Shown here one piece after another: positions 43,932 through 54,403 of a stretch of 64,000 nt of DNA; positions within the stretch are counted from its first letter, which is position 1, and every line of letters begins with the position of its first letter. The notes under the pieces are model-generated. The model saw only the letters and a program-made list of their open reading frames with translations. It made no database searches and had not been told where the DNA came from. The stretch covers positions 1,364,001-1,428,000 of the forward strand of contig NC_007577.1 of assembly GCF_000012645.1 (NCBI RefSeq), written 5' to 3'. The DNA is from Prochlorococcus marinus str. MIT 9312 (GTDB taxonomy: Bacteria; Cyanobacteriota; Cyanobacteriia; PCC-6307; Cyanobiaceae). The position numbers and the translations under genes are program-made.

Positions 43932-44154
43932 ATGACTTTTGTTTTTAGAAATATAAAAATTCTTTCTTTATTCTTTTTTTATATCACTAAATTTCAATCA
44001 CTATTCACATGCTCATATGAGAGGACAATTTTCTTCTAAACAAGAGGCTGTAAAAAAATCTTTAGAACTTGGTTGCGAAGAAATTCATAAGAACCAAGAG
44101 AAATGGCTTTCATGTAAGAACGAAAAAGAATTACACAAGTACCTAAGAATATAA
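43932..44154 (+). pseudogene. DUF3721-type secreted protein, apparently frameshifted
   Basis: The in-frame part 44017-44154 (MRGQFSSKQEAVKKSLELGC, then KWLSC) matches the DUF3721 pattern seen at 53670 and 53935. Upstream, a different frame from ATG 43932 gives MTFVFRNIKILSLFFFYI, a typical signal peptide. Removing one T from the seven-T run at 43974-43980 joins the two into a complete secreted protein. Either a homopolymer error, a decayed gene, or slippage. The 45-residue ORF alone could also be translated. Confidence 0.6.
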
Positions 44155-44403
44155 ATGCAAAAATTTCAACTTTTACATAGAAAAGTAGCTGCTCTCTCTG
44201 CAATACCTCTAATAATTACTCTTATATCTGGTACTTTCTATAGTTTTCTTCAACCATTAGGAGTAGATGCTTTTTGGTTGATCAAATGGCATACAGGTAA
44301 TTTTGGCATTATTAATTTGCAGCCTTTTTATTCTATATTTCTTGGTATTGCATCGATAATCTCTGTCATATCAGGAGTTAAATTATTACAAAAAATTTCT
44401 TAG
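44155..44403 (+). CDS. PepSY-associated TM-like membrane protein
   Basis: 82 residues. HRKVAALSAIPLIITLISGT begins with the His-Arg-x-x-G/A pattern of PepSY-associated helices; WLIKWHTGNFGIINL and a last helix (IFLGIASIISVISGVKLL) follow. It starts directly after the stop of the DUF3721 reading. Possibly a small heme- or metal-linked membrane protein; function unproven. Confidence 0.75.
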   Translation: MQKFQLLHRKVAALSAIPLIITLISGTFYSFLQPLGVDAFWLIKWHTGNFGIINLQPFYSIFLGIASIISVISGVKLLQKIS

Positions 44404-47914: not shown

Positions 47915-48004
47915 TTAGTTAGTTGCTTTTTTCCCTTTAGCTATCATTACCACTGGCACTAATAGATATATAAAGAAAGAGATTAAGAAAATGTCTACGT
48001 TCAT
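47915..48004 (-). CDS. 29-residue single-helix membrane protein in the HLIP operon
   Basis: ATG at 48002-48004, one base after the stop of the HLIP gene. MNVDIFLISFFIYLLVPVVM then IAKGKKATN. Resembles the start of the 28441 product. Confidence 0.58.
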   Translation of the reverse strand: MNVDIFLISFFIYLLVPVVMIAKGKKATN

Positions 48005-49179: not shown

Positions 49180-50475
49180 TTAGAACTTGAAAGTAGCCCC
49201 TACACCAAAAGCGGTACGCTCAAATAAAAAGAAAGCTAATTCATCATCACCAGCTGCAATATCATCAGCATCCTGAGTAGGCATTGCCATTGATATACCC
49301 GGTCTAAGCGTTAAGGAATCATTAACGTTATAAGTGTAATAAAGTTCGATAAAATAACCCAAATCATCCTGCTGAATCCTATCACCATTTAAGTCAGGTA
49401 CTTTGTAGAAAGGGAAAGTTTTATAAGTAGCATGTAAGGTTCCATCACCCCATTCTCTATCAACTGCAAATTGAAAATCTTGGATTGTATCAACTCTTGC
49501 TCCACTAATGGTTGGATCAATAAAACTGGATGTAATGCTAAATGTTAATTTCTCATCTGGGCTGTAATATCCTCCAAATGTAGTAGTTCTATAACCTTCA
49601 TCTAAAATTGCAGTTATTCCAAAATCATTACAAAGGTCAACCGTAAAATCATTAGCAAGAGTACAAAGAGAATCAGAATTTTGAAAAATAATTCCTCCAC
49701 CAAAATTATCAGCGTCATAGCCTAATGAAAAAGTAGTAACATCAATACCTTCTGCAGTTAGTAATCCACTATTGGTATTTGCCCCAGTGCCTACAATACT
49801 TGCTGAAGCATTTAATCCACCATCAAAAGTTCTTGCCACTGCTAGACCAGCTCCTGTTCCTCGACTCGCATAAAAATTAGACTTTAAACCATATTGGCTT
49901 TCAAAGAAAAACTTATCAGAATAAGCCGATGTCTTTGTAGGCATTAAGTCATCACTGTCTAATTCTGGACCTACAGCTATTTGGAATTCTCCAAGAGGAA
50001 ATTGATAATACATTGAAGCCACACTTAAAGTATCTCCTCCAACAACAGAGCTCTCTAAATCAAAATCAATTAAAGCTGATGAGCTTCCAGTTTCAATACC
50101 GACATAAAGATTATCTTCTCCTGTAAAAGAAGTATTCAAGTCGGTTTTTATAGAGTAAGTAGCTGTAACAGCTTCAGTTATATTAGAGTTATCCACAACA
50201 CCAAACTGAAAATTAGTAGAACCACTCATTGTTGTTGTTTCTGAGAAACTTCCCGCTTCTAACTCATTAATTCTAGAATCTATCCTTTCAACACTTTCAT
50301 TAAAGTTTGCAAGATCTTGTGAGAAAGTTTGGCTATTAAATTGTTTTTTTGAAGATGACTTTTTTCGAACATAACGATTTATCTCATCAATATTTATCTC
50401 AGATGCTGTTGCAGTTATAGGTGCTAAAAGACCTAAAAAAGCTGATGTAACTAATAAGCTTTTAAAAAGTTTCAA
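49180..50475 (-). CDS. Outer-membrane porin, picocyanobacterial type
   Basis: 431 residues. Signal peptide at 1-25 (LLVTSAFLGLLAPITATASE). A short coiled-coil region (about 50-75, LANFNESVERIDSRINELEA) stands where larger cyanobacterial porins have their periplasmic anchor. The rest is beta-rich, with repeated aromatic/Gly strands and a terminal Phe (VGATFKF) for outer-membrane assembly. No full SLH domain is seen. Likely a general or solute-specific channel. Confidence 0.87.
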   Translation of the reverse strand: MKLFKSLLVTSAFLGLLAPITATASEINIDEINRYVRKKSSSKKQFNSQTFSQDLANFNESVERIDSRINELEAGSFSETTTMSGSTNFQFGVVDNSNITEAVTATYSIKTDLNTSFTGEDNLYVGIETGSSSALIDFDLESSVVGGDTLSVASMYYQFPLGEFQIAVGPELDSDDLMPTKTSAYSDKFFFESQYGLKSNFYASRGTGAGLAVARTFDGGLNASASIVGTGANTNSGLLTAEGIDVTTFSLGYDADNFGGGIIFQNSDSLCTLANDFTVDLCNDFGITAILDEGYRTTTFGGYYSPDEKLTFSITSSFIDPTISGARVDTIQDFQFAVDREWGDGTLHATYKTFPFYKVPDLNGDRIQQDDLGYFIELYYTYNVNDSLTLRPGISMAMPTQDADDIAAGDDELAFFLFERTAFGVGATFKF

Positions 50476-50817: not shown

Positions 50818-51450
50818 ATGGAACTAATTGGGAAATATAAAAATTCAGGATTCGAAGCGGTAGCTGATGGTGTTATTTCTTTTTTTGATCGCCGTAAAGA
50901 CTTACATACTAATGGTATAGCTTTTGGTCAAAGCATCTCTTTGAATTCTGATCCTTACAAAGTTTCCACTGATATTAGTCTTGTTTCTATAGATCGTTCA
51001 GATCCAGAAGCCTTTGCAATCTCTGAAGTTATAATTAGAGGAGTTAATGCTGCACTAAAAAAATATCTAGAAGATCGGCCACTAGTGAAGGAATGTTGCC
51101 CAGAACAATCTTTATTTGTTAACCCAATATTTAATTTACAACGTTATGCTCCGGGAGAAGGATTTAAGAAATGGCATTGCGATTGGACTATTAGTAATGA
51201 ATCTACAGAACCTGTACACCGAGTATTAGCTTGGATTCTTTATTGTAATGATGTCACTTCTGGCGGGACTGAATTTCGTTGGCAGCAGCATCATGAAGAA
51301 GCTGAAAGAGGAAAACTTATTATCTTTCCCGCAGGAATTTCTCATATTCATCGCGGTAGAGTCAATAATACTGATTTTAAAACTATCGCAACCGGTTGGA
51401 TAAATGCAGGTAATCTTGAAACCTATATTTCACGATTAGCGAACTCCTAA
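50818..51450 (+). CDS. 2OG-Fe(II) oxygenase (prolyl-4-hydroxylase-like)
   Basis: 210 residues. The double-stranded beta-helix core has the facial triad HCDW (H-x-D) and SHIHRG, with IATGWI near the end. LQRYAPGEGFKKWHCDW is typical of the P4H-like group common in marine bacteria and cyanophages. Substrate unknown. It starts immediately after a terminator-like hairpin and between two mosaic repeats, which suggests acquisition by transfer or transcription controlled by readthrough. Confidence 0.85.
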   Translation: MELIGKYKNSGFEAVADGVISFFDRRKDLHTNGIAFGQSISLNSDPYKVSTDISLVSIDRSDPEAFAISEVIIRGVNAALKKYLEDRPLVKECCPEQSLFVNPIFNLQRYAPGEGFKKWHCDWTISNESTEPVHRVLAWILYCNDVTSGGTEFRWQQHHEEAERGKLIIFPAGISHIHRGRVNNTDFKTIATGWINAGNLETYISRLANS

Positions 51451-51687: not shown

Positions 51688-52305
51688 CTAAATATCTAGA
51701 TCACTAATCAACTCAGCTCCTTTTGCGCGGATAATTTGCTCTGAAGGAAAATTACTATTCGAACAAGAACATTTTCCTTTTTCTGAATTGTTAATCCAAT
51801 TAATTATTCCAGTTCTTAGAGGAGAAGGACAAATTTGACTATCCTTAAGAGAATTCATTTCATCACAATCAAGTGAATCTCCATGATCGATAAACAGAAT
51901 CTCTTTTAATCTAAGTGAACATTTTTCATTCCATTTATCAAAGCAATTCAAATGACTAATTAGGTCATTACATGCATCTTTAGTTGAATTATATTTTTTT
52001 CTCTTAACTTCTTTTTGGAAAATAGCTTTAACAAAATCATTAAAGTTAGCTGCTTCTTGAGGAGTAAAATCAGGAAACTTTTTCTTTTGTTTTATAGCTA
52101 AACCAATATTTTCTTCAATCAACTTCAATCTATTTTCATGATTACTTAATCTTATTTCTACATCATCTGAAGCATCGTTATTTAGATGTTTTTTGAAAAA
52201 ATCATTTACATACTCAACTAAAGATTTACCTTCCTTTCTTGCACTAGTTTTTATTTCTTTTAAAAGATTTGGATCAATATTAATATTGAGTTGAGTCCTT
52301 TTCAT
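51688..52305 (-). CDS. Ribbon-helix-helix N-terminal protein
   Basis: 205 residues. MKRTQLNINIDPNLLKEIKT then SARKEGKSLVEYVNDFF is a ribbon-helix-helix (Arc/CopG-like) DNA-binding motif. The next 60 residues are helical; the C-terminal half has many cysteines (CFDKWNEKCS, GKCSCSNSN). Possibly a transcriptional regulator with a metal- or redox-sensing tail. Partners unknown. Confidence 0.72.
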   Translation of the reverse strand: MKRTQLNINIDPNLLKEIKTSARKEGKSLVEYVNDFFKKHLNNDASDDVEIRLSNHENRLKLIEENIGLAIKQKKKFPDFTPQEAANFNDFVKAIFQKEVKRKKYNSTKDACNDLISHLNCFDKWNEKCSLRLKEILFIDHGDSLDCDEMNSLKDSQICPSPLRTGIINWINNSEKGKCSCSNSNFPSEQIIRAKGAELISDLDI

Positions 52306-52440: not shown

Positions 52441-53595
52441 TTAGAATTTAAAGCTGGTTTTCACTATCACTCCTGATACATCATCAGCTCCATCCTGCTG
52501 CACTGCAAAGATTGAGGGGGTTATTGAAATATTGTCATTGATTTGCATCTTATAAAAAGTCTCCCATGCTAAGGGATCATCATAGCCATCATCATCCCTA
52601 TGAGTTTCCGCTGTTCCAATAGCAAATCCTAGGTTATTTCCTTCTTTAATTACATCGTTCCAAAGAATACCAACTGTCCATGTATTACCATCCTCAATAG
52701 AATTTGCAGCTGTATCTGGATCATCATGATTATCTGGATTCTTCCATCCAAAGCCAGCACTTATTGAAGAAGGTAAGAAGACATCTGACTGATTCAAGAA
52801 ATTGTAAGTGCCATTTATTCCATAAGATGAATAATCATTGGCATCAGGACTATTATCTGTATTTCCACCATCAGAATGTGTATAAGCAAAGGCGAGAGTA
52901 TACGAATCATCTACCAATGCAAGCTGTGTAGTAATGTTGTCTCTTCCTTCTTTAGTTAAAATTCCTTCATTAGAATCAGCATCTTCTGAAACGAGAACAG
53001 TACTTGCTATGAATTTATCTTTGGAATAAGTAACTCCTACTCCTGCTCCCATTCTTTTTGAATAGGTGTCATTAGCTCCAGCTTGATTTAAAACAAATAA
53101 AATTCCATCTTCACCAGGATAAGCTGTTGGCTTAACACCAAGTAAATCATCTTGACGAAGTTGAGGTCCCAATGTGACTTTGACAGTATCACTTACAGGA
53201 AACTTATAAAACAGCTTATGAAGTTCAAGACGGTCATTACTATTAAATGCTGTATCTAGCCTAGACTCTCCATTCATTCCAAAGGGATCCATCATATTAA
53301 AATCACCCGCACGAATAGCAGTCATCAACATGTCTTCTCCTGTAAAGCTTGTCATGCCCATTAACTTTAAGTCGTAGTTAAAATGTACAGCATCTGTTCT
53401 AGTGGAACCATCAACGCCTCCTAAAACAAACGTACTCTTTCCCATAAACATCGTTGTTGGGAACGCGTCAGTCATATTCATATGAGAATCATGCATATGA
53501 TGATCATGATGATTCATTCCTCCTGCATGAATAGCAAGAGGCATAATTGTTCCAAGAAAAGCAGGTGCAAATAATTTCTGAGGAGAAAGCTTCAT
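52441..53595 (-). CDS. Outer-membrane porin with His/Met-rich N-terminus
   Basis: 384 residues. Signal peptide to about residue 25, then GGMNHHDHHMHDSHMNMTDA, a dense His/Met/Asp metal-binding stretch. The remainder is beta-barrel-like, with the C-terminal VIVKTSFKF. The first porin at 49180 has no such stretch and has a coiled coil instead. It is divergent from the DUF3721 lipoprotein gene 74 bases away. Likely a channel for a metal ion or metal complex. Confidence 0.85.
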   Translation of the reverse strand: MKLSPQKLFAPAFLGTIMPLAIHAGGMNHHDHHMHDSHMNMTDAFPTTMFMGKSTFVLGGVDGSTRTDAVHFNYDLKLMGMTSFTGEDMLMTAIRAGDFNMMDPFGMNGESRLDTAFNSNDRLELHKLFYKFPVSDTVKVTLGPQLRQDDLLGVKPTAYPGEDGILFVLNQAGANDTYSKRMGAGVGVTYSKDKFIASTVLVSEDADSNEGILTKEGRDNITTQLALVDDSYTLAFAYTHSDGGNTDNSPDANDYSSYGINGTYNFLNQSDVFLPSSISAGFGWKNPDNHDDPDTAANSIEDGNTWTVGILWNDVIKEGNNLGFAIGTAETHRDDDGYDDPLAWETFYKMQINDNISITPSIFAVQQDGADDVSGVIVKTSFKF

Positions 53596-53669
53596 TAAAA
53601 ATAATTTCTAGGGCATCTAGATTAACTAGTAATTACATATTAATATTGGTATAAATTCTTACAATTCCT

Positions 53670-53927
53670 TTGAAACAAACATTCATTCTTTCTCCAATTT
53701 TCTTAATAACCATACTATTTAGTCTTGGCTGCACTTCAAAAGTTGAAGAAACAAAAACCCCTGCACTTTTTGATTCCAAAAGAGAAGCTGAAAAAGCTGC
53801 TAAAAGTTTTAATTGCACTGGAGCGCATAAGATGGGAAATAAGTGGATGCCTTGCGCAACTCATGAAGCTCATGAAAATTCTCATGACAAGAACAAAAAG
53901 GATCACAATCACCACCATCATCATTAA
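53670..53927 (+). CDS. DUF3721 lipoprotein with His-rich tail
   Basis: 85 residues from TTG. Lipoprotein signal peptide with lipobox LFSLGC (Cys about 21). The DUF3721 core SKREAEKAAKSFNCTGAHKM and GNKWMPCATH is followed by KKDHNHHHHH at the C-terminus. A membrane-anchored periplasmic metal binder is likely. It starts the plus-strand pair with the 53935 gene. Confidence 0.83.
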   Translation: MKQTFILSPIFLITILFSLGCTSKVEETKTPALFDSKREAEKAAKSFNCTGAHKMGNKWMPCATHEAHENSHDKNKKDHNHHHHH

Positions 53928-53934
53928 TTCTTAA

Positions 53935-54378
53935 ATGAAGGATTCAGAAAATACTAATCAGAATAAAACTGATGGTCCCGCACATTGCGGTAGTAAGCCA
54001 AAGAAAATTGCAATTGGAATAGCTCCGCTTGGATACATATCAATTGGAATAGTCCCCATGGGTATTGTCACCATAGGAATTGTGCCAATGGGAGTAGTCT
54101 CTTTTGGCGTAGTTGCAATGGGAGTAATAAATGCCTCCATAGTTGGAATGGGTGTTTTCTCTGCTGGAATTACAACGATGGGATTAAAAGTTTGGACTCC
54201 TATAGGACCTAACATTGAACAAAGCACTAAACAAAATAATTCTTCAGATTCAATGAATATTTATGCATATCCCACAAAAGCCAAAGCTATTGAAGAAGCG
54301 AAAAAACTTGGATGCAAGGGGATTCATAAAATGGGTGATTTATGGATGCCATGCGCAACACATGGTTTAAATAAATAA
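53935..54378 (+). CDS. Hydrophobic GIVPMG-repeat protein with C-terminal DUF3721
   Basis: 147 residues. Residues 25-82 consist of short repeats (IGIAPLGYISIGIVPMGIVT continuing similarly) as found in Gly/Met-rich beta-solenoid or membrane-associated repeats. The C-terminal 40 residues are a DUF3721 unit: YPTKAKAIEEAKKLGCKGIH, then WMPCATH. It starts seven bases after the lipoprotein gene. A terminator follows directly. Confidence 0.8.
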   Translation: MKDSENTNQNKTDGPAHCGSKPKKIAIGIAPLGYISIGIVPMGIVTIGIVPMGVVSFGVVAMGVINASIVGMGVFSAGITTMGLKVWTPIGPNIEQSTKQNNSSDSMNIYAYPTKAKAIEEAKKLGCKGIHKMGDLWMPCATHGLNK

Positions 54379-54403
54379 AAAAGAGGCTTTAAAACCTCTT
54401 TTT
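54378..54403 (+). terminator. Terminator of the DUF3721 pair
   Basis: AAAAGAGG/CCTCTTTT stem around a CTTTAAAA loop, ending in a T-run, directly at the stop codon. Confidence 0.8.

Follow-up and report, generated by a model that had tools for sequence, protein, structure and literature searches.

What does a porin with a His/Met-rich N-terminus do opposite two genes for DUF3721 proteins? The locus that raises this question lies in the 64,000-nucleotide stretch of DNA analysed here (the window), and to our knowledge little has been established about how picocyanobacteria pass metals across their outer membrane. The porin gene, the two DUF3721 genes and a gene for a ribbon-helix-helix (RHH) protein (51688-52305) recur together as a cassette. 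We consider it fairly probable, from sequence comparison, that this is a zinc-handling, most likely a zinc-acquisition, cassette of picocyanobacteria. Such an assignment would give the uncharacterised DUF3721 and Cys-rich RHH families a specific role, and the cassette offers a candidate regulator-operator pair.

The porin and its His/Met-rich stretch

The porin gene (52441..53595, - strand) encodes a Som/OprB-type protein of 384 amino acids without the N-terminal SLH part. The protein scores 25.2 bits against Pfam OprB, above the cut-off of 22.9, and matches the NCBIfam model por_somb 'iron uptake porin' (NF033921) over model positions 135-485 only, with 84.6 bits (E 5.7e-24), below the cut-off of 100. 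It has the barrel part in common with the Som-type porins (NF033921, OprB), whereas the whole-model score, which includes the SLH part, is not reached and the protein instead starts with a His/Met stretch. This mature N-terminus, GGMNHHDHHMHDSHMNM (residues 25-41; 53473..53523, - strand), stands directly before the barrel and is as rich in His and Met as the sequence-only reading had claimed, with the opposite DUF3721 gene 74 bp away. Since the family of the window porin presumably carries an N-terminal SLH part, the stretch may face the periplasm. A search of solved structures with the porin profile gave no match at E values up to 1. A second porin gene of the window (49180-50475, - strand) also matches por_somb below the cut-off, and has neither the SLH part nor a His-rich stretch.

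The sequence-only reading had made its interpretation depend on conservation of the His/Met stretches in orthologues. In the porin, the stretch is His-rich in all 28 orthologues read, so it is not a product of chance. The His residues were counted by automatic anchor in 26 orthologues and by eye from the sequence in two (L162 and L175); L174 was excluded because its porin is split over two frames. The 26 anchored orthologues have 4-7 His per 27 residues, the end of the signal peptide included. Single positions vary, and among ten sequences (including that of G335, a genome of another genus in the same family) H29 and H32 are the only His residues of the window porin that are invariant. Met is less constant than His, with 0-4 residues per stretch. 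As a control we took 21 other picocyanobacterial porins, i.e. the longest ORF at each of the lower-ranked loci of the porin search, and none of them has more than two His in any 25 consecutive residues of its first 195.

One related locus (L246) sheds light on the history of the protein. It encodes a full-length, SLH-bearing porin, which at 134.1 bits exceeds the NF033921 cut-off, adjoins the same DUF3721 and RHH genes, and has MMDHSGHGHSGMGHGGG after its coiled-coil part and ahead of the barrel. Judging from this one sequence, it is likely that the wall anchor has been lost and the metal stretch retained. Spread of the cassette by phage was rejected, as viral contigs yielded no confirmed relative of either the porin or the GLTT-DUF3721 protein described below. 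Part of one article reports that the MIT9312 porin RS06535 falls with HDPE leachate and that a NATL2A porin is affected by PVC leachate (PMC6517427); neither is equated here with the cassette porin.

DUF3721 subtypes and their genomic neighbours

Across the 74-bp intergenic region (53596-53669), a divergent gene with a TTG start (53670..53927, + strand) encodes a probable lipoprotein of 85 amino acids. Both its DUF3721 core (53769-53864; PF12518, 65.0 bits against a cut-off of 27) and its HNHHHHH tail (53904-53924, + strand) are present as previously read. The lipoprotein part of that reading is less clear: the signal sequence ends in SLGC, which fits neither lipobox pattern tried, and two relatives read LMGC and LIGC at this site. 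Plasmids gave no match to the 85-aa protein, and solved structures only matches at chance level. The following gene (53935..54378, + strand) encodes a 147-aa GLTT-repeat protein with a C-terminal DUF3721 (54268-54363; 65.3 bits), as was also seen in an alignment of 17 relatives. The GIVPMG repeat noted earlier is real and corresponds to the 10-residue (2 x 5) Pfam GLTT repeat (63.6 bits); its association with the membrane is putative. The structural model of this protein is of low confidence (mean pLDDT 51.4); the repeat is drawn as short regular strands and only the DUF3721 part comes near 80. After the stop codon, a near-palindromic hairpin with a T tail (54378..54403) is a possible terminator; the consensus scan reports it on the - strand and finds 1 such site, compared with 1.5 in shuffles. 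At the gathering score, Rfam has no match between positions 48000 and 57000 of the window.

DUF3721 is common in the genus of the window: the genome itself (one contig of 1,709,204 bp, with the window at 1364001-1428000) has five matches, and the domain is found in 184 of 200 genomes and in all 67 near-complete ones. Across the phylum it occurs in 35 of 291 genomes, every one of which belongs to the family of the window. Among 168 distinct DUF3721 ORFs, two types stand out, M-type with C-x-G-x-H-x-M and N-type with C-x-G-x-H-x-N, each followed by W-[ML]-P-C. At least four His within the last eight residues are found in 47 of 64 distinct M-type proteins lacking GLTT, in one of 33 N-type proteins and in none of 72 GLTT-DUF3721 proteins. 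Both cassette proteins are M-type (HxMG..WMPC). By motif and neighbours, DUF3721 divides into zinc-linked and copper-linked subtypes. The word DUF3721 appears in none of the literature searched.

The copper-linked subtype is N-type. In each of 20 DUF411 loci read (the best 20 of 93 matches in 91 genomes), an N-type DUF3721 gene directly follows DUF411/CopG, and in 19 of them a PepSY_TM-like gene is also present, whose Pfam PepSY_TM match is below the cut-off. DUF411 matches the solved chain 6wis with an E value of 2.6e-28, and part of a review describes 6wis as CopG, a copper-resistance protein (PMC7558416). The cassette shares with these loci the same small Cys/His domain but differs in that its DUF3721 proteins are M-type, a type that is mostly His-tailed, and it does not belong to the loci with adjacent DUF411 and N-type DUF3721. 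Nor is it tied to the copper gene, since DUF411 is listed for only four of the nine porin-bearing genomes (91 of 200 overall). In the window's genome the DUF411 match lies at genome position 1132778, away from the cassette. Copper was rejected as the leading metal of the cassette because the copper context is that of N-type DUF3721, including a locus with a multicopper oxidase and DUF305 (L141). The window also holds a decayed N-type copy (44017-44154, + strand) that reads HKNQEKWLSC; MP has changed to LS, and the signal start is no longer intact. It is followed by a PepSY_TM-like gene (44155-44403, + strand), in the order seen in DUF411 loci and without DUF411.

The porin is an accessory gene in the genus of the window. 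An orthologue with 79-100% identity is found in nine of 200 genomes, the next full-length match being 35% identical; G050 has an additional partial match with 45% identity over residues 3-128. Six of the nine carry the whole cassette, including the GLTT-DUF3721 gene and the divergent gene of the 85-aa type. In two others (L072 and L074) the divergent short DUF3721 gene lacks the His tail and has no GLTT neighbour, and the third (L066) has a truncated copy.

The neighbours in relatives point to the metal. In G335, the cassette adjoins, by Pfam, an ABC-3 ZnuB-type permease, a Fur-family regulator, an ABC ATPase, ZnuA and a COG0523 GTPase. A porin-profile pattern scan of genome contigs, which does not give a random sample, yielded 29 related loci. 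In 19 of these the porin, short DUF3721, GLTT-DUF3721 and RHH genes share the locus with homologues of znuB, zur, znuC, znuA and cobW (COG0523), and in 18 of the 19 folE stands on the opposite side. Five of the other ten are orthologues of the window type, with no zinc genes in the stretch examined. Two (L162 and L174) are close to where a contig ends or come from a short one, and in L158 the 2.9 kb upstream gave no match to short DUF3721, GLTT or RHH. In the stretches examined, L173 has the cassette and no zinc genes, and L175 the cassette without RHH or zinc genes. The sequence-only reading had named copper, nickel, cobalt or zinc; the linkage to znu/zur genes (19 of 29 loci) supports metal handling and narrows the choice to zinc as the most likely metal. 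A 2OG-Fe(II) oxygenase gene (50818-51450, + strand) adjoins the cassette in the window, and both G335 and the 19 zinc-locus cassettes have a homologue where the zinc locus ends on the far side.

The name Znu rests on Pfam ZnuA, Fur-type synteny and the literature, since the ABC proteins are below the NCBIfam zinc/manganese equivalog cut-offs. According to part of a study on marine Synechococcus WH8102, Zur is a repressor of synw0968-0973, which include znuABC, and an activator of bmtA and the gene next to it (PMC9337993). The znuA, znuC and znuB genes beside the 19 cassettes are of the same kind. The cassette differs from that regulon in having no Zur box, and neither the porin nor DUF3721 is named among the eight Zur-dependent genes in the part of that study available (PMC9337993). 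ZnuA has long His/Asp-rich stretches both in G335 and in the genome of the window, where the znu/zur locus is apart from the cassette, near 953 kb. In another genus (L146), a DUF3721 pair stands beside a ZnuB/C-like pair, and at L138 DUF3721 adjoins an ABC operon of the Mn/Zn type. The DUF3721 family is not confined to zinc, since members are also found beside HupE/UreJ (L135) and Fur-family genes elsewhere. As seen by eye, GLTT-DUF3721 adjoins an oppositely oriented Fur-family-like gene in three more genomes of the taxonomic family to which the window belongs (L140, L148 and L151).

The CTAG array and the RHH protein

The sequence-only reading had called for a search for a shared operator in the 74 bp, and a candidate is present: a tandem array of three CTAG boxes at a 9-bp pitch, CTAGGGCATCTAGATTAACTAG (53608..53629), which may serve both divergent promoters. 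The pattern CTAGN{5,6}CTAGN{5,6}CTAG occurs at this single place in the genome of the window, and a CTAG triple appeared in one of 200 dinucleotide shuffles of the window. Ten of 87 near-complete genomes of the genus have a match. Six of them are among the seven near-complete porin genomes, and there the match is always at the cassette; the seventh porin genome (G050) keeps two boxes. The other four come from the remaining 80 genomes, some of which are outside the 200-genome porin search. Within the surrounding 2.3-3 kb, these four have no cassette or RHH homologue. Since a reversed control pattern with GATC boxes also matches in 18 of the 87 genomes, with one match in that of the window, chance does produce arrays of four-base boxes, and the evidence is the place of the array and not its rarity alone. 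A promoter scan was uninformative, with 6 sites compared with 13.8 in shuffles.

The related loci show the same association. A CTAG pair is present in the cassette promoter regions of 28 of the 29 loci (7,867 bp), L174 being the exception, compared with 18 pairs in 551,886 bp elsewhere. Of the 19 zinc-locus cassettes, 15 have a pair at each of their two divergent promoters. Six loci without the cassette (L132-L136 and L235) have no CTAG pair. Among 28 RHH homologues collected elsewhere, for which 250 bp upstream was searched, ten have a CTAG pair 80-132 bp before their own start; the rest of the RHH-homologue sequence holds nine pairs in 130,551 bp. The 18 homologues without an upstream pair include six second paralogues taken from genus g3 (L254 and L265-L269) and one beside a porin fragment, likewise with no pair (L263). 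Two more (L262 and L264) are cassette-linked and have CTAG pairs beside the short DUF3721 gene instead. The second RHH paralogue of the window's genome (L253) has no pair within 250 bp upstream. Mainly because the association recurs in different surroundings, we read the array as a candidate RHH operator. Its place between the two start codons, close to each, suggests that the RHH protein may repress both units and release them on a metal signal.

The RHH gene (51688..52305, - strand) follows the porin on the same strand in all nine porin-bearing genomes of the genus. By fold, the N-terminus of its product resembles the repressors Arc and CopG (Foldseek probabilities reach 0.98, at E values above 1). 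The profile gives weak matches to solved structures (best, the CopG-family 9kkd, E 0.0054), and Pfam matches are all below the cut-offs; it is by its N-terminal fold that the protein belongs to the RHH class. The structural model is fair (mean pLDDT 81.1, pTM 0.60). A fixed pitch between short boxes is a further point in common with Arc and CopG, and with MetJ and NikR, which are likewise RHH repressors of tandem boxes. The window protein differs from all four by its C-terminal domain, which is helical, rich in Cys and about 130 residues long, and for which no confident match was obtained among solved structures. C121, C159, C179 and C181 are invariant in ten close sequences, and only C159 of these is kept in 13 of 13 wider homologues; a metal site in the protein is possible. 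The earlier suggestion that this protein could be the regulator has gained support, since CTAG pairs mark 28 of 29 cassette promoter regions and the upstream regions of ten of 28 RHH homologues, and we conclude that it is probably the regulator of the cassette. A literature search for a ribbon-helix-helix protein with a CTAG operator in cyanobacteria found none.

Control by Zur was rejected. Scoring of 17 cassette promoter regions gave no Zur box, the best value being 1.9 as against 23-33 at the znuA/znuC boxes, which speaks against a simple place of the cassette among the Zur targets. A further motif, approximately TTTGTANNNAAAAGCACA and sometimes present twice, was seen by eye in the intergenic region of zinc-locus cassettes, upstream of the porin (L160, L163, L165, L168 and others).

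A proposed role and its alternatives

The gene content and its conservation, the znu/zur linkage, and the array with its association to RHH genes can be combined into a tentative scheme. The porin would let the metal cross the outer membrane, and the His/Met stretch would catch it on the barrel's periplasmic side. The His-tailed DUF3721 lipoprotein may then serve as a periplasmic buffer or hand the metal on towards the His/Asp-rich ZnuA, with the GLTT-DUF3721 protein as a putative second DUF3721 carrier. The RHH protein would govern both divergent units through the CTAG tandem arrays.

We prefer uptake to detoxification because the neighbours are import genes, although the missing Zur box leaves room for the other direction. 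If surplus metal were the inducer, the His/Met stretches could soak up periplasmic zinc or copper, because such clusters could act as sinks too; the lack of a Zur box at the cassette, and the company that another DUF3721 subtype keeps with the copper-resistance protein DUF411/CopG, would agree with this. However, import genes adjoin 19 of the 29 loci, an extra porin is no obvious defence, and DUF411 is listed for only four of the nine porin-bearing genomes, and we regard sequestration against metal excess as unlikely. It is also conceivable that the same parts handle cobalt, nickel, copper or manganese and that the zinc locus is a mere neighbour. His and Met bind several metals, and DUF3721 relatives have HupE/UreJ as neighbour at L135 and the Mn/Zn-type ABC operon at L138. 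The recurrence of zinc neighbours in 19 of 29 loci makes this quite improbable in our judgement.

The genes flanking the cassette vary among the genomes of the window's genus, as would be expected if an accessory porin, DUF3721 and RHH genes shared genomic islands by chance and had no common function. Yet the porin, DUF3721 and RHH genes and the array stay together despite different surroundings and gene orders, and the His-rich stretch is retained; a chance assembly seems very improbable. Returning to zinc acquisition, a bolder form of the proposal, which we put forward with some reserve, is a TonB-independent outer-membrane route for scarce zinc in the smallest phototrophs of the ocean. This route would comprise an anchor-less porin with a His/Met entrance, His-tailed DUF3721 carriers and, as a new type of regulator, a Zur-independent, Cys-rich RHH metal sensor that reads CTAG arrays.

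Judged by titles and the first lines of abstracts, none of the papers listed in our literature search deals with such a cassette; Barnett et al. 2012, on marine cyanobacterial zinc genes, may cover parts. Passages of PMC8374608 and PMC3865332 hold nothing on the cassette locus, and the papers listed for locus tags PMT9312_15xx concern, by title, arginine and phosphate.

The porin is rare in the genus of the window (9/200), yet other Prochlorococcus have it next to their zinc locus, and its presence could therefore reflect different metal niches. In one genome (G077, locus L075), the DUF3721 pair and the RHH gene are accompanied by a different porin and by a Gly/His-rich protein of 113 amino acids. 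This protein (L075:6600-6941, + strand), which has no Pfam match, contains MGGGHGGGHSGCSSG and occupies the position of the porin opposite the DUF3721 pair.
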